From Croceivirga radicis (GTDB lineage Bacteria; Bacteroidota; Bacteroidia; Flavobacteriales; Flavobacteriaceae), in the NCBI RefSeq assembly GCF_002072105.2, contig NZ_MTBC01000008.1:62001-126000 (forward strand): a stretch of DNA of 64,000 nt, read 5' to 3'. Each line of letters opens with the position of its first letter. Position 1 is the stretch's first letter. The position numbers were made by a program, and so were the translations under genes. Under the pieces are notes generated by a model, which worked only from the letters and a program-made list of their open reading frames with translations, did not search any database and was not told where the DNA came from. Below are positions 6,060 to 45,963 of the stretch, one piece after another.

Positions 6060-6599
6060 ATGAAAAACCTATTAAAATTATCTTTTCTATTTGTGGCCCT
6101 TTTAGGTGCTAGTTCTTTAAGTGCACAAAAATTTGGAGGTCTAGACAAAAGCCCTGCAGATATTGCCAGCTACCCAACCAGTTATAAAGATGCCAATAAG
6201 ATTGTAAAAATTGTTTATAGCAGACCGCAATTAAAAGGCAGGGACCTAGAGACATTGGCACCTTCTGGTAAAGTATGGAGAACCGGGGCTAACGAAGCAA
6301 CAGAAATCACTTTTTATAAAGACGTAACTTTTGGAAATAAAAAAGTATCGGCGGGTACCTATAGTTTGTTTACCATACCTGGTGAAACGGAATGGACGTT
6401 AATTTTAAATAAAAATCTGAACCAGTGGGGAGCCTATAGTTATGAAAACGCTGCCGATGTAGTGCGTGTTCAAGGAAAAGTATCTAAAGGTAGCGAATCC
6501 TTAGAGGCATTTTCTATTGCATTTAATGATGTAGAAGGTGGCGCGGAGCTTGTAATGGGATGGGGAACCGCTAGAATAACTACTCCTATAAAATCATAA
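6060..6599 (+). CDS. DUF2911 domain exported protein
   Basis: 179 residues. The signal peptide MKNLLKLSFLFVALLGASSLSAQ directs export. The mature region contains KIVYSRPQLKGRD, SGKVWRTGANEATEI and SAGTYSLFTIPGETEWTLILN. These are the hallmark segments of DUF2911, a periplasmic beta-sandwich family of unknown function that is very common in Bacteroidota. Normal family members of this size hold a single domain, as here. A -7 element TAGTTTTG (6020-6027) lies 32 bases before the ATG. The gene converges on an amidohydrolase gene and shares a bidirectional terminator with it. Confidence 0.88.
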   Translation: MKNLLKLSFLFVALLGASSLSAQKFGGLDKSPADIASYPTSYKDANKIVKIVYSRPQLKGRDLETLAPSGKVWRTGANEATEITFYKDVTFGNKKVSAGTYSLFTIPGETEWTLILNKNLNQWGAYSYENAADVVRVQGKVSKGSESLEAFSIAFNDVEGGAELVMGWGTARITTPIKS

Positions 6600-6610
6600 T
6601 CCCGAATAGA

Positions 6611-6646
6611 GAAAAAAAAAGCTCCCAAAAGGGAGCTTTTTTTATT
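6611..6646. terminator. Bidirectional terminator between convergent genes
   Basis: Stem GCTCCC (6621-6626) / GGGAGC (6631-6636), loop AAAA, a run of nine A before it and seven T after it. It can end transcription of the DUF2911 gene on plus and of the amidohydrolase gene on minus, overlapping the last codons of the latter. Confidence 0.88.
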
Positions 6647-8267
6647 TTACCTTTTTACCATTCACAAAAACATCCGTTGCTTTTACAAACGGTATACTGT
6701 CTACCGGTACGGCAAGCAAATCTTTATCCAATACGGTAAAATCTGCAAGTTTACCAGGCTCCAAACTGCCTTTTTCATTTTCTTCAAAGTTGGAATATGC
6801 CGCCCAAATGGTCATCCCCTTTAACGTTTCTTCGCGGGTTAACGCCTCTTCTTTCATAAAGCCCTCTTGAGGATATTGCTCTAAATCTTGTCTTGCCACT
6901 GCAGCATAAAAAGTTAAAAACGGACTTACTTGTTCTACTGGAAAATCGGTACCCAAAGCTACCAACCCTGCTTTGCGCAATAGTGTTTGGTAGGCATATG
7001 CGCCATGTATGCGTTCTTTCCCCAAACGGTCTTCTGCCCAGTACATATCACTAGTGGCGTGTGTTGGCTGTACCGAAGGAATAATACCAGAACTGAAATA
7101 ATCAAAGTCTTGATTTTCCAATATTTGAGCGTGTTCTACTTTCCATCTTCGGTTATTTTTACCCTCCAATGCCGATTTGTATGCTTTTAATACGACAATA
7201 TTTGCAGAATCGCCAATGGCATGCGTGTTCATCTGGTAATCTGTTGCAGCTATTCTTTTTGCTAAACCTTCAATTTTATCCGCTGGGGTAACCAAAGCCC
7301 CAAAATGCCCAGGTTTATCTGAATATTCCTGTTTTAATGCTGCTCCCCTAGAACCTAAAGCACCGTCCCCGTATACCTTAACAGAGCGTACATTGAGCCT
7401 ATCGGTTTTTAATATACCCTTGTTTAAAAAGTGGTCTAAATTTTCTGGAGTATTAGACACCATTGCATACATACGAATAGACAAGTCTCCAGCTTGCTGT
7501 AAACTATCTACTAAATAAATTATCTCTTTATCTAAACCAGCATCATTAACTGTAGTTAAACCATAATCAAAACAAATTTTTTCTGCCTGTTTTAGTGCTT
7601 TTATTTGCGTAGCCCTACTAGGTTTGGGCATTACAGCATCTACCAAAGCCATTGGATTATCTACCAAAACACCGGTAAGTTCGTTGTCCTTTTTAAGAAT
7701 GTCGCCACCAGACACCTGAGTATCCATGTTAATACCTGCCAACTTTAAGGCCGCATTATTTACCAAATACGCATGCCCATCTACACGTTCTAGTACAACC
7801 GGTTTATCTGGAAAAAGTTCGTTTAAAACAGTATTGGCAGGAAATTCTTTTAATGACCAATCGTTTTGATCCCAACCTCTACCCCTTATAACAGTGGCTT
7901 GGTTTGAGGCCGCAAATGTCTTAACCCTTTCAATTACTTCATCAAAGCTGTTGGTACCCACCAAATCTACAATTTGCTGGTTTAAACCCAGACCATAAAA
8001 ATGACAGTGGGCATCTATTAAACCTGGTACGATTGTTTTACCTTCTGCATCAAAAGTTTCTTTGCCTGAGTAAGTATTGAGTAATTCATTAGAATTGGCC
8101 AACGCCACAATCTTACCCTTATCAATAGCCATGTAAGTTGCTTTTGAGAACGTACTATCTACAGTATAAATAGTAGCATTGCTTACAATTAAATCTACCG
8201 CTTGTTTTTGTTTACATGCAAAAAGCAGCGTTGTTAACGCTGCAATTGTTAAAAAGTGTTTTTTCAT
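6642..8267 (-). CDS. Amidohydrolase family lipoprotein (YtcJ-like)
   Basis: 541 residues. The signal peptide ends in the lipobox LLFAC (Cys about 18), predicting a membrane-anchored, periplasm- or surface-facing enzyme. The chain then follows the metal-dependent Amidohydro_3 plan: a beta-strand cap (DLIVSNATIYTVDSTF), PGLIDAHCHFYGLG with the HxH metal ligands (about 87-89), GRGWDQNDW, GDGALGSRGAAL, MNTHAIGDSAN, KVEHAQIL and LGTDFPVEQVSP, ending in the cap strands GKLADFTVLDKD. The family hydrolyses amide or related bonds in varied small molecules; the substrate cannot be told from the sequence. The normal family length is 530-560, so it appears complete. It converges on the DUF2911 gene. Confidence 0.88.
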   Translation of the reverse strand: MKKHFLTIAALTTLLFACKQKQAVDLIVSNATIYTVDSTFSKATYMAIDKGKIVALANSNELLNTYSGKETFDAEGKTIVPGLIDAHCHFYGLGLNQQIVDLVGTNSFDEVIERVKTFAASNQATVIRGRGWDQNDWSLKEFPANTVLNELFPDKPVVLERVDGHAYLVNNAALKLAGINMDTQVSGGDILKKDNELTGVLVDNPMALVDAVMPKPSRATQIKALKQAEKICFDYGLTTVNDAGLDKEIIYLVDSLQQAGDLSIRMYAMVSNTPENLDHFLNKGILKTDRLNVRSVKVYGDGALGSRGAALKQEYSDKPGHFGALVTPADKIEGLAKRIAATDYQMNTHAIGDSANIVVLKAYKSALEGKNNRRWKVEHAQILENQDFDYFSSGIIPSVQPTHATSDMYWAEDRLGKERIHGAYAYQTLLRKAGLVALGTDFPVEQVSPFLTFYAAVARQDLEQYPQEGFMKEEALTREETLKGMTIWAAYSNFEENEKGSLEPGKLADFTVLDKDLLAVPVDSIPFVKATDVFVNGKKVK

Positions 8268-37178: not shown

Positions 37179-38534
37179 TTGTACACGATAATTGACGTTG
37201 AAACTACGGGTAATGGATTAAAAGGCAACAAAATAACAGAAATCTCCATATTCAAGTTTGATGGTTCTGCCATAGTAGAAGAATTTACCAGCCTGGTAAA
37301 TCCAGAACAACCAATACCTCAATATATAACTGCTCTAACGGGCATAGACGACCAAATGGTTGCCCATGCCCCAACATTTTCAGAAATTGCCGAAGACATT
37401 TTACGCATAACCCAAGATGCAATTTTTGTGGCACATGCCGTTAACTTTGACTACGGTGTTATTAAAGAAGAATTTAAACAAACCAACACCAACTTTGTTC
37501 GTAAAAAATTATGCACCGTTAGGCTTTCTAGAAAGTTAATTCCGGGGTTAAATTCTTACAGTCTGGGAAAATTATGCACTAGCTTAAACATACCCCTTAA
37601 AAATAGACATAGAGCAAGAGGAGATGCACATGCAACGGTATTGCTATTTAAAATGTTATTGGCAAAAAAGCAATCCGATACCGTAATCAAGTCTTTTCTA
37701 AACTCCAGGAGCCAAGAAGCCACCCTACCTCCATTATTGGATAGAAAAACGGTGGACAACCTACCCAACCAACCTGGAATCTATTATTTTTTGGATCGCA
37801 CTAATAAAATAATTTACGTGGGTAAGGCCAAGCAACTTAAAAAAAGGGTCTTGGGACATTTTTATGATAAGTCTGAGCATGAAATACAACTATGTAAGGA
37901 AATTGCGCATGTAGAATTTGAGTTGTCTGGATCTGAATTATTAGCATTACTAATGGAAAGTGCTGCTATAAAAAAACATTTTCCAAAGTTTAATAGGGCC
38001 CAAAAAAAAGTTATAAAACAATATGGTATCTTTTCTTATGAAGATAGAAACGGCATTAAACATCTAGCATTCGGGGCTTTAAAGCAAATACCAAATGCCT
38101 TTACAACTGTGAATAACCCTACGGAAAGTCGTTTATTGTTAGAAGAAATCTGTAAACAATTTCAACTTTGCCCTAAATATTGTCAATTAAGAAACGGTAC
38201 CCTAAACTGTGATGAGATACCTTATACGCACTGCAAAGGAATTTGCAACAATAATGAGGAAATACAAGCGTACAATCTACGAGTAGACAGCGCAATTAAT
38301 TTTTTAAAAGAAAGAAGACAAACCCTATTACTTTCCTTACCTGGAAGAACGGCAGAAGAAAATGCTTTTATATACATGAACCAAGGCCATTATAAGGGCT
38401 ATGGTTTTGTAAGCAGGGAAACAACTGTAAATTCAGAAATGGATTTAGAAGCTTTTCTAATACCGCAACCCAATACGGTAGAGGCTAGACAAATAATAAA
38501 TGCACATTTAAATAAAATTAAAATATCTATCTAA
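37179..38534 (+). CDS. DEDDh exonuclease fused to a GIY-YIG nuclease domain (DnaQ-Cho type)
   Basis: 451 residues. It starts with TTG at 37179 after a purine-rich stretch (AAAAAGGAAAGGAACG), giving MYTIIDVETTG at once, so an ATG start would cut the domain. Residues 1-165 are a DEDDh 3'-5' exonuclease: IDVETTG (Exo I), VAHAVNFDYGV (Exo II), HRARGDAHAT (Exo III). Residues about 195-275 are a GIY-YIG domain as in UvrC and Cho: PGIYYFLDRTNKIIYVGKA, KKRVLGHFYD and ESAAIKKHFPKFNRA. A Cys-containing tail (CPKYCQLRNGTLNCD, HCKGICNN) follows. The fusion suggests DNA repair or proofreading nuclease activity. It lies 32 bases upstream of the LytS cassette. Confidence 0.88.
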   Translation: MYTIIDVETTGNGLKGNKITEISIFKFDGSAIVEEFTSLVNPEQPIPQYITALTGIDDQMVAHAPTFSEIAEDILRITQDAIFVAHAVNFDYGVIKEEFKQTNTNFVRKKLCTVRLSRKLIPGLNSYSLGKLCTSLNIPLKNRHRARGDAHATVLLFKMLLAKKQSDTVIKSFLNSRSQEATLPPLLDRKTVDNLPNQPGIYYFLDRTNKIIYVGKAKQLKKRVLGHFYDKSEHEIQLCKEIAHVEFELSGSELLALLMESAAIKKHFPKFNRAQKKVIKQYGIFSYEDRNGIKHLAFGALKQIPNAFTTVNNPTESRLLLEEICKQFQLCPKYCQLRNGTLNCDEIPYTHCKGICNNNEEIQAYNLRVDSAINFLKERRQTLLLSLPGRTAEENAFIYMNQGHYKGYGFVSRETTVNSEMDLEAFLIPQPNTVEARQIINAHLNKIKISI

Positions 38535-38566: not shown

Positions 38567-39655
38567 ATGTTCAATCCAAAAGCTAAAACAATATTTTTTG
38601 CAAACTCAAAGCCGTTCATAGGTTTTGATGACAAATATTTTATTCTGGGCTGTATATTTTTTAACACCCAAGTATTAATGTCTCTTTTTTACCAGAATGC
38701 ACTTTACGAGGTACCATTCACCATCTATTTTTATAAATGGTTAGAATATGCACTTGTAACCGTAGTGCTCATAGTTACCCTAAGAACCTTATACCTTTAT
38801 AACCTCAAAAAGTATCCTGGACCAGAAAACAGAAAAAAACGCTGGCTGTTTTTACCCCTTCTTTTGATTCCGTTTTCCATAATCTTGTGCATGTACCTCT
38901 TTTTTATAGAGCCCCATGTTACCACAGAAATACCGGGCTATGTACAACCAAATACCAGAACATTGGTAATAACTGGTAGCATAATGTTACTGGTTAATGA
39001 AGCAGCTTACACAATCCTAATTTACATCTATGAACTTAATCAAGTAAAAGTTAAGGCAGAACAATTAGAAAAAGAGAAAGCTATTGCCCAACTAATTAAT
39101 CTTCAGAACCAAATGAACCCGCATTTTTTGTTCAACAGCTTAAATACTTTGGTTTTTTTAATAGAAAATGATAAAGATAAAAGTATTGACTTTGTGCATA
39201 AACTGGCTTTTTTTTACAAAAGAATGGTTTCACAACACCATAAGAACCTAATTTCTTTAAAAGAAGAACTAGAATATATAGAGGCATACACCAAACTATT
39301 AAAGATAAGGCATGGTGGCAATCTCAACTTCAACTTTACAATTCGGGAAGATGTTTTAACTAATTATGTAGTACCCATGTCTATTCAAATAGGAATAGAA
39401 AATGCCGTAAAGCACAACAATGTTTCGCAAAGACATCCATTGACCATTACTATTTACAGCCAAAATCAAGAAATAGTAATTGAGAACAACCTACAAAAAA
39501 CAGAAAAAAATATAGGGGTAAGCGGTTTAGGCATTTCCAATATCAATAAGAGATATCAACTAGTGGCCAACAAAACGGTTAGTACAGAGGATAACGGTAG
39601 TGTTTACCGCTTAAAAATACCCTTAATACATAAGGATGATAAGAAAATGGATTAA
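38567..39655 (+). CDS. LytS-type sensor histidine kinase, paralogue 1 (intact)
   Basis: 362 residues. Four membrane segments (about 25-45, 58-78, 93-113, 133-155) follow a conserved start PFIGFDDKYFILGCIFFNT. A coiled-coil linker (VKVKAEQLEKEKAIAQL) leads to the His_kinase domain with the phospho-acceptor in QMNPHFLFNSLNTL (His186, codon 39122-39124). The N-box is IQIGIENAVKHNN and the G-box SGLGISNINKRY. It is thus a complete LytS/YehU-type kinase of the inner membrane. The next kinase overlaps its end by 20 bases. The three kinases and the response regulator form one probable transcript. Confidence 0.9.
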   Translation: MFNPKAKTIFFANSKPFIGFDDKYFILGCIFFNTQVLMSLFYQNALYEVPFTIYFYKWLEYALVTVVLIVTLRTLYLYNLKKYPGPENRKKRWLFLPLLLIPFSIILCMYLFFIEPHVTTEIPGYVQPNTRTLVITGSIMLLVNEAAYTILIYIYELNQVKVKAEQLEKEKAIAQLINLQNQMNPHFLFNSLNTLVFLIENDKDKSIDFVHKLAFFYKRMVSQHHKNLISLKEELEYIEAYTKLLKIRHGGNLNFNFTIREDVLTNYVVPMSIQIGIENAVKHNNVSQRHPLTITIYSQNQEIVIENNLQKTEKNIGVSGLGISNINKRYQLVANKTVSTEDNGSVYRLKIPLIHKDDKKMD

Positions 39656-40691
39656 ATTCATCTTTCCAGATTCTAAACCTATTTTAGGTTTCAATGATCG
39701 GTACCTTGCAATGGTAGCTTCTATTATTAACTGCCATACGGCTATGACCATTTATTTTACCAATGCTTTTTTTACCATTCCAAAATTTTTGTATTTCAAA
39801 AAATGGTTAGAGTTCTATTTAATTGTTTCCGTAATTTTTATTTGTACCCGAAAAGCATACCTTTTTCTAGTAAAAAAATACCCTGCTTTTGAACAAAGTA
39901 GGGCCAGATGGAAACGCATACCACTAGTGCTTCTTCCCTTTTTTGGGATTGCTATACCGTACGTTAAAATATACCGACCAAAATTTTCCATTTATTTAGA
40001 GAATTATGGACATCCAAATTTTTATAACGAGTTGGTTACAGGTACCATTATAATCCTTGTAGATTTGGCAATTTATGAAACCATCTATCTTTTATTGGAA
40101 CTTAAAGAGGCAAAAATTAAAGAGAAAGAATATCAGAATAAAAAATTGCTGTTCGAGTTATCTGGTCTTAAAAATCAAATAAGCCCACATTTTTTATTCA
40201 ATAACCTTAATTCACTACTCTATTTAATTGATGAAAGCCCAGAAAAAAGTAAGGAGTTTGTACACAAATTATCTTTTATCTATCACAAGATATTAGAGGG
40301 TTCACAAAAAGACTTAATTGCCGTGAGCGAAGAAATGGAATACACCAATGCCTATATAGATTTATTACAGCAAAGATTTGGTGGTAATCTAGTTTTTAAT
40401 GTAGATGTTAAAAGCAAAAACATGAAAGTTATTCCACTGGCTTTACAGCTTTGTATAGAAAATGCCGTTAAACACAACATAGTATCTAAAAACCACCCTT
40501 TGACCATATCAATTACAGATAAGAATGGCTACCTTATTATAACCAACAACAAACAGTTAAAACCAAAACCCTTTAGTTCAGGAATTGGCATAAACAACAT
40601 TAAAGATCGTTACGGCATAATTACGGACCAAAGCGTTATTGTACAAGAAAACCAAAGCAGTTTCACCTTAAAACTTCCGTTAATCCCATAA
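39636..40691 (+). CDS. LytS-type sensor histidine kinase, paralogue 2 (intact)
   Basis: 351 residues, same plan as paralogue 1: PILGFNDRYLAMVASIINC, four membrane segments, linker, then QISPHFLFNNLNSLLYL with His185 (codon 40188-40190), N-box LQLCIENAVKHN and G-box SSGIGINNIKDRYG. All residues expected for catalysis are present. It overlaps the upstream kinase by 20 bases and the downstream pseudokinase by one base (TAATG), which implies translational coupling and fixed stoichiometry. Confidence 0.9.
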   Translation: MIRKWIKFIFPDSKPILGFNDRYLAMVASIINCHTAMTIYFTNAFFTIPKFLYFKKWLEFYLIVSVIFICTRKAYLFLVKKYPAFEQSRARWKRIPLVLLPFFGIAIPYVKIYRPKFSIYLENYGHPNFYNELVTGTIIILVDLAIYETIYLLLELKEAKIKEKEYQNKKLLFELSGLKNQISPHFLFNNLNSLLYLIDESPEKSKEFVHKLSFIYHKILEGSQKDLIAVSEEMEYTNAYIDLLQQRFGGNLVFNVDVKSKNMKVIPLALQLCIENAVKHNIVSKNHPLTISITDKNGYLIITNNKQLKPKPFSSGIGINNIKDRYGIITDQSVIVQENQSSFTLKLPLIP

Positions 40692-41758
40692 TGATAAATT
40701 GGATTATAAAAAGCTTGAACCGAAGTCATCGTTACACCATTTTAGGTTTTAACGATAGACCTTTATTTTGGGCCGCCTGCTTTATAAATACCAATATTTT
40801 AATGGGAATTCTCTATATGGACTTATTTTTAGAAGGCCCTTTTAAACGTTTTGTTGCCATATACATTGGTGTTTTTTGCTACATAATGCTTCATTACGTA
40901 CTAATGCGGGCCTATTACCTTTACCTCCTTAACCAATATCCTGGATTCAATAACAGAACTACTAGGATAGTATTATTACCTATTGTCTTGGTTATTTATT
41001 TACTAACAACCTTGTTATTAGATATTGCTTTAGACCCTTTTCTGGCCATAGAGGACCCTTTGCACAACAAACCTCCTATTTCAAAAGAATTACTAACTGG
41101 CACCTTATTAATTTTACTAAATGTTGGTGTATACGAAGCCTTACAATCTTTAATAGAATTAGAAAAAGTAAAACAGCGGTCCTTTAAGTTAGAAAAAGAC
41201 CACGCCCTTTTAAAACTTAAAAGCCTAGAAGAAAAAACCAATCCAAGGTTTTTGTTCAACAGCCTAAACACTTTATTGTTTTTAATGGATGAGAGCCATG
41301 AAAAAAGTAAGCAATTTGTATTAGACCTTTCTTACCTCTATCAAAAACTATTACAAAATTCTAAAAGCAACACTATACCATTAGAACATGAAATAGAACA
41401 TATAACCATTTACAGTAGAATCCTTAAAGAGCGGTATAGAGAAAGTTTTGAAATGCAGATAACAGGAACAGCCTTAGCGGATAAACACATAATACCGCTA
41501 ACGTTATTTCTACTATTAGAACAGATTTTTAAAACAACTTATAAAAGCAAAAATAAGCCCTTACTAATAAGACTAACCATAGAAAAAGACAAGGTTGTAC
41601 TGAATCATAATAACTTAAACCAAGAGACCGTAACGCCTAAAGATGATGCAATAGCACTTATTAACGGCAGGTATACAGCTTTGACCAGCCAGCTCATTTT
41701 ACAAGAAAAAAAAGAAAATTGGTACTATTACAGTGTACCGTTAATTGTACCATCTTAG
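40691..41758 (+). CDS. LytS-type pseudokinase, paralogue 3 (phospho-acceptor His and ATP boxes lost)
   Basis: 355 residues. It has the same N-terminal signature (TILGFNDRPLFWAACFINTN), four membrane segments and dimerisation region, but the acceptor motif reads NPRFLFNSLNTLLFL: Arg186 (AGG, 41246-41248) replaces His. The N-box is LFLLLEQIFKTTYKSKN, without the Glu-Asn-x-x-x-His core. The G-box region is DDAIALINGRY, without the glycines. The frame is open over the full normal length with no frameshift, so it looks like a kept pseudokinase rather than decay. It may act as a regulatory dimer partner for the two active paralogues or as a pure sensor. A sequencing error cannot explain several independent motif losses. 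Confidence 0.88.
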   Translation: MINWIIKSLNRSHRYTILGFNDRPLFWAACFINTNILMGILYMDLFLEGPFKRFVAIYIGVFCYIMLHYVLMRAYYLYLLNQYPGFNNRTTRIVLLPIVLVIYLLTTLLLDIALDPFLAIEDPLHNKPPISKELLTGTLLILLNVGVYEALQSLIELEKVKQRSFKLEKDHALLKLKSLEEKTNPRFLFNSLNTLLFLMDESHEKSKQFVLDLSYLYQKLLQNSKSNTIPLEHEIEHITIYSRILKERYRESFEMQITGTALADKHIIPLTLFLLLEQIFKTTYKSKNKPLLIRLTIEKDKVVLNHNNLNQETVTPKDDAIALINGRYTALTSQLILQEKKENWYYYSVPLIVPS

Positions 41759-41815
41759 GATGATAGGACTTTTGTACTATATTTAATAAGAAATTGAAAG
41801 TGTATATTTGAACAC

Positions 41816-42592
41816 ATGCAAAAGAAGGTAAAAATTGTAATTGTTGAGGACGAACCCATATCTACTGCTTACTTAAAAAAGCTTATTAGAGAAACTGAAA
41901 TAGAACACGAGATAGTTGCAGAATTGGATTCTGTATCTGATTCCGTTTTGTTCTTTGGTTCTGATACTGAATATGATATTATATTCATGGATATTCACCT
42001 TGGTGATGGTACATGTTTTGAAATTTTAAATACCATAAAAATTTCTAAGCCTATAATTTTCTGCACAACTTTTGACACCTATGCCATTGAAGCTTTTAAT
42101 TACAATAGCATTGACTATATTTTAAAACCTGCTAAGCTTAATGATATTGAAGACGCCCTTTCTAAATACTACTCCATAAAAAAAGTAGAAGAAGAAAGTT
42201 ATGCGCACCGTATGGGTAAAATGATGGATACCATTGCACCTAAAAGTTATAAAAAGCGATTTCTTATTCGCACAGAAAACAAACTTAATCTAGTAGATGT
42301 ACATAATATCTGTTGCATCTATTCCGAAGACGGACACACCCATTTGGTAGACAAATCTGGAAAAGAATACGTTATAGATTTTACGTTAGAAAAATTAGAA
42401 GAATTATTAAATCCAGAGTTTTTCTTTAGAATCAACAGAAAACTCACATTAAATATAGACGAAATAAAATCTGTGGAAGATTACCCAAACAATAGGCTTA
42501 TTGTAGAATTGGAGCATCCGGTAGATTTAGAGTTGGTGGTAAGTAGAAATAGGGTAAAGGATTTTAAAAATTGGCTCAAAGGCATTCTATAG
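41816..42592 (+). CDS. LytTR-family response regulator
   Basis: 258 residues. The receiver has acidic residues in VIVEDEPIS, the phospho-acceptor Asp59 in IIFMDIHLGDG, T83/T84 in FCTTFD and Lys104 in YILKPAK. Residues about 145-255 are a LytTR DNA-binding domain (KRFLIRTENKLNLVDVHNIC in part, YSEDGHTHLVDKSGKEYVID in part, FFRINRKLTLNIDEI, VVSRNRVKDFKNWL). It should bind DNA when phosphorylated by the upstream LytS proteins. A TATATTTG -7 motif (41803-41810) ends five bases before the ATG, so a second, nearly leaderless transcript is possible. The gene follows the pseudokinase after 57 bases. Confidence 0.92.
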   Translation: MQKKVKIVIVEDEPISTAYLKKLIRETEIEHEIVAELDSVSDSVLFFGSDTEYDIIFMDIHLGDGTCFEILNTIKISKPIIFCTTFDTYAIEAFNYNSIDYILKPAKLNDIEDALSKYYSIKKVEEESYAHRMGKMMDTIAPKSYKKRFLIRTENKLNLVDVHNICCIYSEDGHTHLVDKSGKEYVIDFTLEKLEELLNPEFFFRINRKLTLNIDEIKSVEDYPNNRLIVELEHPVDLELVVSRNRVKDFKNWLKGIL

Positions 42593-42970: not shown

Positions 42971-42999
42971 AAAAAAAAGCCCCAATTACTGGGGCTTTT
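42971..42999 (-). terminator. aceA terminator
   Basis: Stem GCCCC (42979-42983) / GGGGC (42991-42995), extended by A-T pairs, loop of seven. On the minus strand it is followed by a run of T (42978-42971). It lies 20 bases after the aceA stop. Confidence 0.85.
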
Positions 43000-43018
43000 C
43001 ACAATAAATAAAAACAAC

Positions 43019-44299
43019 CTATATAAACTGAGCGGTTTCTGTACTTCCTTTCATGGCAACCGTAGATGCCCTACCTGCTGTTACGGTATTTTGTACAGCA
43101 TCAAAATAAGTTGTACCTACAAAGGCTTGGTGCTTTACAGCCCTAAAGCCATATTGCTGCAAGGCAAATTCACGTTCTTGTAATTCAGAATAACCTGCCA
43201 TACCGCGTTCCTTGTATGCCTTGGAAAGCTCAAACATGCTGGTATTCAATGCATGGAAACCTGCAAGGGTAATAAATTGAAACTTATACCCCAATGCTGC
43301 TAATTCCTCTCTAAATGTTTCCATTTCTGCAACACTTAATTTTGATGCCCAATTAAAAGAAGGAGAACAATTGTAGGCTAACATTTTGCCCGGATATTGG
43401 GCATGTATGGCCGTTGCAAATTTTCTTGCCTCTTCTAGATTGGGGGTGGAGGTTTCTAACCAAAGCAAATCAGCATAAGGTGCATAACTCAACCCTCTAT
43501 CAATACCTTGCTCTAATCCGTTTTTAACATAAAAGAACCCTTCTGGAGAACGCTCACCTGTAACAAACTTTTTATCCCTATCATCTATATCACTGGTAAG
43601 CAAATTTGCGGCATCAGCATCTGTACGGGCAATAATTACCGTAGGTACGTTCATAACATCTGCTGCCAGCCTAGCAGCAATCAACTTATTAACAGCTTCT
43701 TGCGTAGGCACTAGTACTTTACCGCCTAAGTGACCACATTTTTTGGCAGAACTCAACTGATCTTCAAAGTGAACTCCAGAAGCCCCGTTTTCTATCATCC
43801 CCTTCATCAATTCAAAAGCATTTAGGTTACCTCCAAAACCAGCTTCTGCATCTGCTACAATTGGTACCAAATAATCTTTTTTATCTTCAACCCCGTTTAC
43901 GGTTTGTATTTGGTCTGCCCGCAATAAAGCATTATTGATTCTTTTTACTACCATTGGTACGCTATTAGCGGGATATAAAGACTGGTCTGGATACATTTCT
44001 CCCGCCAAATTGGCATCGGCCGCAACTTGCCATCCACTCAAATAAATAGCCTCTAGACCTGCCTCTACCTCTTGTATTGCTTGGTTGCCGGTTAATGCAC
44101 CCAACCCTGCTACCCAGTCTTGGTTATTTAATTTGGTCCACAATTTTTCTGCCCCTAACCGTGCAACCGAGTAATCAATAGTATAAGAACCTCTTAGGTT
44201 AATCACCTCTTCTGCGGTGTAAGGTCTTTCAACACCTTTCCATCTAGGGTTTACCGTCCATTCTGTTACTAATTGTTGAATTCTTTCTTTTTTTTCCAT
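43019..44299 (-). CDS. aceA: Isocitrate lyase
   Basis: 426 residues, the length of the short bacterial class. It splits isocitrate to glyoxylate and succinate, the first glyoxylate-shunt step, in the cytoplasm. Signature [17 protein letters not shown] carries the catalytic Cys. Other motifs are [84 protein letters not shown] and [18 protein letters not shown]. It follows aceB by 62 bases on the same strand, so both are probably co-transcribed, with a hairpin between them. Confidence 0.96.
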
Positions 44300-44325
44300 A
44301 AGTTTAGTTTTTAGAAATTTAATTG

Positions 44326-44363
44326 TCCCAGGTTGTGTTCGCCCACGCTTGGGATTTTTTTTT
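44326..44363. terminator. Hairpin between aceB and aceA
   Basis: TCCCA (44326-44330) pairs with TGGGA (44350-44354), with a looser inner helix. A T-run (44355-44363) follows on the plus strand, so in classical terms it would stop plus-strand (antisense) transcription. On the minus strand it would be a processing or stability hairpin in the aceB-aceA message. Function uncertain. Confidence 0.35.
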
Positions 44364-45963
44364 AAATGATTTCTTTATAGGCATTTAGTGTTAAAAACTC
44401 TTCAAATTGGGTTTGGGTAACCAATGCGTCAAACAGTTCAAATGCTTTTAAAAATTGGGTGTTTAAAAGATTGGCCTCACCTACCAAGTGTTTAATTTTC
44501 TCTTTTTCCTCCTCAAAAATGCTTTGGTATAATTCCTTTTTAAATCGCCTACCATCCGCTAACCGAACCTCATATTTAAGCCATTGCCAAATTTGGGTTC
44601 TAGAAATCTCTGCGGTTGCGGCATCTTCCATTAAATTGTACAATGCCACACAACCTTGACCACGCAACCAAGATTCTATATAAAGGATGCCAACGTTAAT
44701 ATTCTTTCGTATGCCTTCTTCTGTTATGGTTCCTTTAGGTATGGCAATTAAATCTGCTTCTAAAATCTGGTCTTCCTCTCGTAGCACTTGCATTTGGTTT
44801 TGAGTTGGCATATACCTATCAAACTCTTTTAAGGCAATAGGTACCAATGCAGGATGCGCTACCCAAGTACCATCGTGCCCATTTTTAACCTCGCGTTCTT
44901 TATCCAACCGAACTTTTTCCATAGCGGTTTCATTTGCCAAAGGATTATCTTTAATGGGTATTTGTGCGGCCATACCTCCTATGGCCAAAATTCCTCTTTT
45001 ATGGCACCGCTGTATTACCCGTTTAGAATAGGCATCCATAAAAGGTACCGTCATGGTTACCTGATCCCTGTTTGGTAGTATAAATTCTGGGTGATTCCTG
45101 AATTTTTTTATGTATGAAAAGATATAATCCCAACGTCCACAGTTTAAACCAACAATATGGTGTTTTAACTCATAAATAATCTCATCTAGCTGAAAGCTTG
45201 CCGTTATTGTCTCTACTAAAACAGTAGCTTTAAAGGTACCTTTAGGCACGTTTAAATAATTTTCTGAGAACGTAAAAACCTCATCCCACCATCTTGCCTC
45301 TAGGTAGTGCTCTAGTTTGGGCAGGTAAAAATATGGGGCACTACCCTTTTCTAGCAGCACTTGGGTATTATGAAAAACATACAATCCAAAATCTATCAAA
45401 CTCGCAGAAGTAGATATCCCCTTAACTTTTAAATGGCATTCCTCTAAGTGCAATCCTCGTGGACGTACCAACAATACAGCAGGATTATCATTTAACTCAT
45501 ACTGTTTTGCCCTTTTACTATCGTAAAATTTTATGGTGCCCTTATTGGCTTCTATAAGGTTCTGCTGGCCTAACATGCAATTATACCAAGTAGGCGCATT
45601 ACTATCTTCAAAATCTGCCATAAAGGTCTTGGCTCCAGAGTTTAAAGCATTTATGACCATTTTACGATCAACAGGCCCCGTAATTTCCACACGTCTATCC
45701 AAAAGGTCTTTAGGTATATGTGGCACCTGCCATTCCATATTCCTGGTTTGTTCTGTTTCTTTTGGAAACGTTGGAAATACCCCAGCATCAAATTGTGCCT
45801 GCGTTTTTACGCGCTCTTGCAACAGTTGCAGTCTAGTTTTGTTAAACTTGGCATGTAAAGCGATAAGAAATTCTAAAGCTTTATCCGTTAATAGTTCTGG
45901 ATAATAGTTGTTCACATTATCCGCAAACTGAATTTCTGAAGTGGTCATAATAGCTTGTTCCAT
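44362..45963 (-). CDS. aceB: Malate synthase A
   Basis: 533 residues, typical for malate synthase A. It condenses glyoxylate with acetyl-CoA to malate, the second step of the glyoxylate shunt. Motifs: [71 protein letters not shown] with the metal Glu, [62 protein letters not shown] and [20 protein letters not shown] with the catalytic Asp. The start [13 protein letters not shown] leaves a leader of about 16 bases after the mapped -7 element. A second ATG at 45948 is possible. Confidence 0.95.

Follow-up and report, generated by a model that had tools for sequence, protein, structure and literature searches.

A LytS-type membrane pseudokinase predicted beside two intact siblings in Croceivirga radicis, and recurrent live/dead LytS pairs in Bacteroidota

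The marine-type bacterium Croceivirga radicis encodes an array of three LytS-type kinase-like proteins, here K1, K2 and K3, followed by one LytTR response regulator. The array lies in a stretch of 64,000 nt (contig NZ_MTBC01000008.1, positions 62,001-126,000, forward strand; hereafter the window, whose positions are used throughout). Judged by its sequence, K3 is a membrane pseudokinase. We favor, at a probability of roughly 0.6, the reading that K3 is a catalytically dead LytS-type kinase that arose in the kinase cluster of this locus and serves its live sibling or siblings as a regulatory subunit. Related bacteria repeatedly pair a working kinase with a dead or half-dead one, a recurrence that points to the dead copy as a regulatory partner rather than junk. 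The array and the motif losses of K3 are located as follows.

38567..39655, + strand: K1, intact LytS-type kinase, 362 amino acids (aa); His186, N-box from residue 277, G-box GLGI from residue 320
39636..40691, + strand: K2, intact LytS-type kinase, 351 aa; His185, N-box from residue 274, G-box GIGI from residue 316
40691..41758, + strand: K3, predicted LytS-type pseudokinase, 355 aa; assigned by motif losses, PF06580 match and model
41240..41260, + strand: K3 acceptor motif NPRFLFN, residues 184-190; Arg186 at the position of His in K1 and K2
41516..41539, + strand: K3 N-box remnant LEQIFKTT, residues 276-283; Asn replaced by Gln, KHN by KTT
41633..41674, + strand: K3 G-box and lid region TPKDDAIALINGRY, residues 315-328; G-box glycines gone
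41816..42592, + strand: LytTR response regulator, 258 aa; receiver intact, Asp59

All three kinase-like proteins match PF06580 (76.0, 72.4 and 56.9 bits for K1, K2 and K3; curated cut-off 25.2) and share an N-terminal GF(D/N)D signature beginning at residues 19, 18 and 19, in line with an earlier note on this DNA (the original prediction) that described three LytS-type paralogues in a row. The four-helix membrane part ascribed to all of them is recovered by hydropathy in K1 and K3 with four segments each, while K2 shows three. As the note had also read correctly, K1 and K2 retain the acceptor His of the PHFxxN motif, the N-box IENAVKHN and a G-box, and K3 has Arg186, a ruined N-box and DDAIAL in place of the G-box glycines. 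Because the ATP-site residues (N-box Asn and G-box glycines), present in K1 and K2, are missing from K3, we file K3 as a LytS-derived pseudokinase and not as a kinase. It combines lost catalytic residues with a fold that is kept in the predicted model, as in pseudokinases of the RocA/DivL type. NCBIfam holds no family for K1, K2 or K3, nor for two other pseudokinases described below. Within its own genome, which has ten PF06580 matches, all seven proteins outside the locus have His and N-box Asn; the G-box Gly column is kept in six of them, while for L006, the seventh and a LytS of another kind, the alignment ends there. The regulator combines a LytTR domain (PF04397, 4e-18) with a receiver (PF00072, 6e-13), and its D12 and K104 are invariant among eight aligned syntenic sequences.

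The genes are tightly packed. K1 and K2 overlap by 20 bases and K2 and K3 by one (base 40691), which the K2 stop codon shares with the K3 start codon; 57 bases separate K3 from the regulator. K3 follows both live kinases and stands immediately upstream of the regulator, not between two active kinases as had been proposed. Its full-length intact frame and one-base overlap with K2 were described accurately. As the frame is open from the overlapping start to the stop, a frameshift or sequencing artefact is ruled out. All 355 codons are free of stops and frameshifts despite an amino-acid difference of ~67-70% from the nearest intact relatives; when K2 was randomly mutated with substitutions only, indels left out, a load of 0.1 substitutions per site left 5 of 1000 copies without a stop and a load of 0.25 left none of 1000. 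Mean identity of K3 to six intact or near relatives is 39% in DHp, 27% in the membrane part and 24% in CA, compared with 51%, 33% and 42% for K2, making CA the domain of largest extra divergence. The acceptor helix of K3 is nearly unchanged except for the His (NPRFLFNSLNTL), and FLFNSLNTL is retained near Arg186.

Modeling of K3 (predicted local distance difference test, pLDDT, 82.4; predicted template modeling score, pTM, 0.50; 21 alignment rows) yielded four long N-terminal helices at residues 23-41, 51-82, 96-119 and 130-182, including a long signaling helix, followed by DHp (185-222 and 231-248) and a CA-like alpha/beta fold. The pseudokinase of locus L105, introduced below, gave a similar model (pLDDT 82.6, pTM 0.53). 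Both are single-chain models whose domain packing is loosely defined given the low pTM. The best PDB matches of the two are GanS kinase-domain entries with template modeling (TM) scores of 0.52-0.58 by target length; for K3 it is the GanS kinase domain at E 2e-5 and a TM-score of 0.52. At E up to 0.01 the A2 profile, too, matches no sequence but GanS (5e-14).

In order to follow the locus through the genus, we compared 10 other genomes, nine of which were judged at the syntenic locus; G001 was left out, its neighbor match being weak and its regulator lying at a contig start. The locus was anchored on the following gene, which we take to encode an exonuclease and GIY-YIG-like protein.

37179..38534, + strand: upstream neighbor, conserved, synteny anchor; ends 32 bases before K1

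Between neighbor and regulator lie no kinase in two genomes (G006 and G008, where the regulator directly follows the neighbor), one in four (G002, G004, G007, G010) and two in three (G003, G005, G009). G208 and G183, further genomes of the family, have one. The three kinases of the window form the largest array seen at this locus, and since copy numbers differ between syntenic loci the array grows and shrinks. The triplet, which the original prediction had proposed to search for, was found in none of the nine genomes; with neither a third kinase there nor an orthologue among 60 relatives, which offer at best a K2-like kinase at 33%, K3 is not conserved as had been claimed. Nor was an orthologue found in a single-protein scan covering 84,980 species, each by one genome, a scan that detects close relatives only; 15 stretches fitted a pattern, none encoding a K3 relative. 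K3 falls within the 15-row clade of its own locus (support 100/99). The kinship of K1 and K3 was rejected, as the intact rows nearest to K3 are K2-like; K1 itself shares 59% identity with the lone kinase that G010 has at the syntenic locus.

Two kinases of the syntenic locus depart from the intact state in the three columns (acceptor His, N-box Asn, G-box Gly): K3 and the second kinase of G009, whose kinase lengths and motifs match Croceivirga lutea CSW06 (Flavobacteriaceae). The C. lutea protein (L076:8916-9989) keeps the His, has the N-box IEDAVAKN and lacks a G-box. A clade uniting it with K3 is disfavored by the tree and not rejected (approximately unbiased, AU, test, p 0.091), so that separate losses in the genus number one or two. 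At the two loci without kinases the regulators are themselves altered. The G006 regulator (L207:590-1408) has Asn for the phospho-Asp and has lost the conserved Lys, and in that of G008 (L206:584-1363) the Asp is kept with changed surroundings. The LytTR domain remains conserved in both, which looks like a switch to phosphorylation-independent regulation.

Recurrence was examined with a regulator profile (A1) that served as anchor and is blind to kinases. A first set comprised 80 regulator-anchored loci, and a second the 112 consecutive best A1 matches in 395 Bacteroidota genomes, window included; kinase runs were counted within 400 bases upstream of the regulator. The profile searches of phylum and class scored the best 5 or 6 candidates per genome, and absences in them are therefore soft. 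The second set held 78 runs in 76 of its 112 loci, 36 loci having no run that meets this rule: 67 solitary kinases, one of which, cut by the locus end, was dropped, and 11 tandem runs. Every full-length solitary kinase has His, N-box Asn and G-box Gly (66/66). In eight of the 11 tandem runs (window, L223-L227, L229, L277) a kinase is without at least one of these, and in the remaining three (L228, L231, L239) the first kinase lacks the N-box His that is kept in 66/66 solitary ones. Fisher's p is 8e-9 on loci and 5e-6 with the tandem side alone collapsed to five groups, in a contrast where neither side, solitary or tandem, consists of phylogenetically independent loci. A further 39 kinases in these loci fall outside the upstream rule, 37 of them intact in all three columns; the remaining two are L246:5931-7499, of another kinase kind, on the opposite strand and with an unaligned acceptor column, and L319:6196-7308, described below.

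The 80-locus set gave the same picture, with a degenerate member in 5/5 tandem LytS pairs: C. lutea, L077 (uncultured Flavobacteriaceae), L078 (Flammeovirga sp. SJP92), and L085 and L105 (Bacteroidetes assemblies), a contig end cutting the live kinase in L085 and the regulator in L105. His, Asn and Gly are seen in 18/25 solitary kinases of this set; the other seven show G-box alignment gaps, not substitutions, and one of them, at a contig end, is also gapped at the acceptor. Overall, in the sampled Bacteroidota motif loss upstream of LytTR regulators occurs only beside a second, intact LytS, in at least four separate tree groups. The proposal of a membrane pseudokinase in a kinase-regulator array is therefore borne out by the K3 sequence and by the recurrence of intact/degenerate pairs in the phylum, while K3 itself lacks the conservation claimed for it.

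Half-dead members of another make were seen in five tandems, where the first kinase keeps its His and is altered in N-box or G-box (L228:3399-4460, L239:2933-3991, L231:5477-6532, L229:4485-5537 and L277:3166-4740) and the second is intact. The first kinases of L228, L231 and L239 form one clade. By eye, the 524-aa LytS of L277 apparently carries two membrane sensor copies in its N-terminal half, then one kinase core.

One widespread version is an independent family with the gene order intact LytS - pseudo-LytS - LytTR, found in 11/11 of its loci, with a live/dead gene overlap of 4 bases in 9/11. A profile (A5) built from four of its dead kinases gave, among the candidates scored, five matches at 1.6e-79 or better in the 395 phylum genomes, the next being 1.4e-37, and six below 1e-42 in 335 class genomes (weakest 7e-65; four the same as in the phylum set). 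The nine dead rows of the tree group in one clade (100/100) and the nine rows of their live partners in another (100/100), a pattern that favors inheritance of the two kinases as a pair. The acceptor surface of the dead members is altered, NPxLLYESLE-like. For one genome pair (G721 and G352), the ratio of nonsynonymous to synonymous rates (dN/dS) is 0.13 for the dead kinase (membrane part 0.14, DHp 0.10, CA 0.145), 0.17 for the live kinase (0.28, 0.15 and 0.06) and 0.09 for the regulator, ratios that are rough because overall dS is 1.1-1.4. These values from a single pair indicate that the dead kinase is under purifying selection, which extends to its CA-like domain but constrains it less than the CA of the live kinase.

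In all ten loci of this family with readable upstream DNA (L223, L224, L225, L226, L227, L339, L340, L077, L078, L105), the gene next upstream of the live kinase encodes a secreted-looking protein of 446-573 aa. These proteins are mutually similar across the ten loci by BLAST and, by eye, begin with a signal peptide and carry SDxY/SDH-like repeats; a Pfam comparison of seven of them gave no score above a curated cut-off. The repeat protein is probably a fourth part of the pseudo-LytS system. In the window the gene upstream of K1 is the exonuclease-like neighbor, not a secreted-looking repeat protein, and a search of the C. radicis genome with one member (L105:214-1773), run with no positive control, gave no match. 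Membership of K3 in this family was rejected, as a clade of K3 with its nine dead rows is excluded (AU p 0.0155). K3 is a parallel case to the widespread pseudo-LytS family.

How might a dead kinase act in such an array? Without His and without an ATP site, K3 would stand outside the usual phosphate flow, neither giving nor receiving, which would leave an allosteric role (RocA- or DivL-like) or docking of the regulator. K3 may pair with K2, or with K1, through DHp and the membrane helices; it could form hetero-oligomers, in which it would set the strength of phosphorylation or dephosphorylation of the regulator by the live kinase, perhaps adding a membrane input of its own. We infer an action on a partner kinase from gene order and from the recurrence of live/dead pairs. 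The overlapping genes before a single LytTR regulator speak for this reading, as do membrane helices, DHp and an acceptor helix that are otherwise kept. Recurrent intact and degenerate LytS pairs, one family of them under purifying selection, likewise fit heteromeric signaling as put forward in the original prediction. Extended to the phylum, the idea becomes tentative, in our estimate somewhat short of even odds: tandem LytS of Bacteroidota would generally be obligate hetero-oligomeric receptors with one catalytic and one dead or half-dead input subunit, a design that would have arisen several times; in one widespread form, secreted repeat protein - live LytS - dead LytS - LytTR, the heteromer would read the secreted protein or its ligand.

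Several observations weigh against K3 as a regulatory subunit. Both kinases are intact in the tandem pairs of G003 and G005, of the same genus, and in that of G457 (L230), outside it, so degeneration is common and not a rule. Locus L319 (2262-7308) has two LytS genes before its regulator and one after it; the last (6196-7308), a run of one 367 bases after the regulator, has His and N-box and has lost the G-box Gly. In K3 the membrane part and DHp are, like CA, more diverged than in K2, and K3 sits on a long branch (1.52) that exceeds every other end branch in its 15-row clade. K3 is found in one genome only, and its dS is saturated, which leaves no usable dN/dS for K3 itself. Finally, the published pseudokinase precedents presumably come from kinase families other than LytS.

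Decay of a spare copy, its frame still open by chance or through operon coupling, has to be considered, chiefly because a single genome is known to carry K3. The unstable copy number (0, 0, 1, 1, 1, 1, 2, 2, 2 across the nine genomes of the genus, against 3 in the window), the long branch and the excess divergence in CA all fit decay. Against this stand 355 open codons at ~67-70% amino-acid difference, compared with 5/1000 simulated neutral copies still stop-free at 0.1 substitutions per site, an acceptor helix almost unaltered apart from its His, and the association of motif loss with an intact neighbor across the phylum sample, and we hold decay to be unlikely, though the most serious of the competing accounts. 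Rather improbable, in our view, is that K3 docks the regulator as a sink, or aids its dephosphorylation, and does not act on K1 or K2. FLFNSLNTL beside Arg186 would suit such docking, and the DivL dead kinase core can bind a phosphorylated regulator (PMC4211667); the independent pseudokinase family has altered this very DHp surface, so docking is no evident shared feature. An active K3, using another phospho-acceptor or a rearranged ATP site, could draw on the PF06580 score above cut-off and the CA-like fold of the model; yet His, N-box Asn and G-box glycine are gone together, and none of them is missing in 66 full-length solitary relatives, which makes this account highly improbable. A dead regulatory subunit of a live sibling thus remains our preferred reading of K3.

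Downstream of the regulator and convergent with it, the window carries two genes at 43019-45963 whose products we take to be isocitrate lyase and malate synthase. They are convergent with the regulator in seven genomes including that of C. radicis. As this arrangement is missing from the stretches fetched for G009, G208 and G183, there is no case for the two genes as regulated targets. A terminator-like hairpin (42974-43000, - strand; 12 pairs, T-rich tail) follows the isocitrate lyase gene. A scan for promoters and terminators was uninformative because its counts do not exceed expectation (21 promoter-like sites vs 26.7 expected; 4 terminator-like vs 4.3).

Histidine kinases are usually regarded as homodimers, and to our knowledge natural pseudo-histidine kinases are few, each in its own lineage. 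Among the systems closest to the one described here, FasB and FasC presumably belong to another kinase family than LytS; RocA is an accessory protein to CovR/S and is not known as a LytS paralogue arrayed with its partners; BtsS/BtsR and YpdA/YpdB are known with one kinase per regulator. FasBCA of Streptococcus places two kinase-like membrane proteins and one regulator in one operon, one of the proteins being a proposed pseudokinase with a dispensable CA domain, and two-hybrid data indicate heterodimers, not homodimers (PMC12675982). By sequence, the C. radicis array likewise combines at least two kinase-like genes with one regulator gene. However, FasC requires its His246 (PMC12675982) and supplies it as acceptor, whereas K3 has Arg186, and the array here has three kinases. 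As FasC still provides a His, K3 cannot be of the FasC type; the C. lutea second kinase, with His kept and CA motifs lost, is closer to FasC.

RocA is a membrane pseudokinase that interacts with live CovS and changes CovR phosphorylation (PMC7028121), an action on a live kinase like that proposed for K3. In the DivL-CckA/DivK system the acceptor His is replaced and a dead kinase core is reused to control another kinase (PMC4211667); DivL differs from K3 in having Tyr for His, in a CA that is usable, given the autokinase activity of the Y550H form, and in its architecture. A CA-dead ChrS variant alters output through its live paralogue HrrS, and native HrrS-ChrS heterodimers were detected by two-hybrid assay, truncated ChrS giving no significant heterodimer signal (PMC9491836). 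Unlike K3, that variant is a laboratory-evolved frameshift in one of two separate two-component systems (PMC9491836). BtsS/BtsR and YpdA/YpdB of gamma-proteobacteria also pair a LytS-type kinase with a LytTR regulator (PMC5552118, PMC10653868). By match of these terms alone, PMC5552118 makes no mention of Bacteroidetes, tandem, degenerate, two histidine kinases or heteromer.

The array had been put forward as an undescribed system. This needs narrowing, since pseudokinase-partner systems are published; among the open-access papers searched, which cannot prove absence, we found no LytS/PF06580-LytTR system with a pseudokinase partner. Pseudo-histidine kinases and three-component systems are already known, and the phylum-wide pattern is more interesting than the single locus. 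Across the phylum sample motif loss tracks an intact neighbor; it arose separately several times, and one operon family that carries it is conserved. This opens to genetic tests, in several free-living genera, the question whether duplication lets one sensor-kinase subunit specialize as a dead partner. Should the heteromer prove real, K3, with neither His nor ATP site, and the C. lutea partner, with His only, would bear on cis versus trans phosphorylation, and such pairs would be natural designs for asymmetric receptors.

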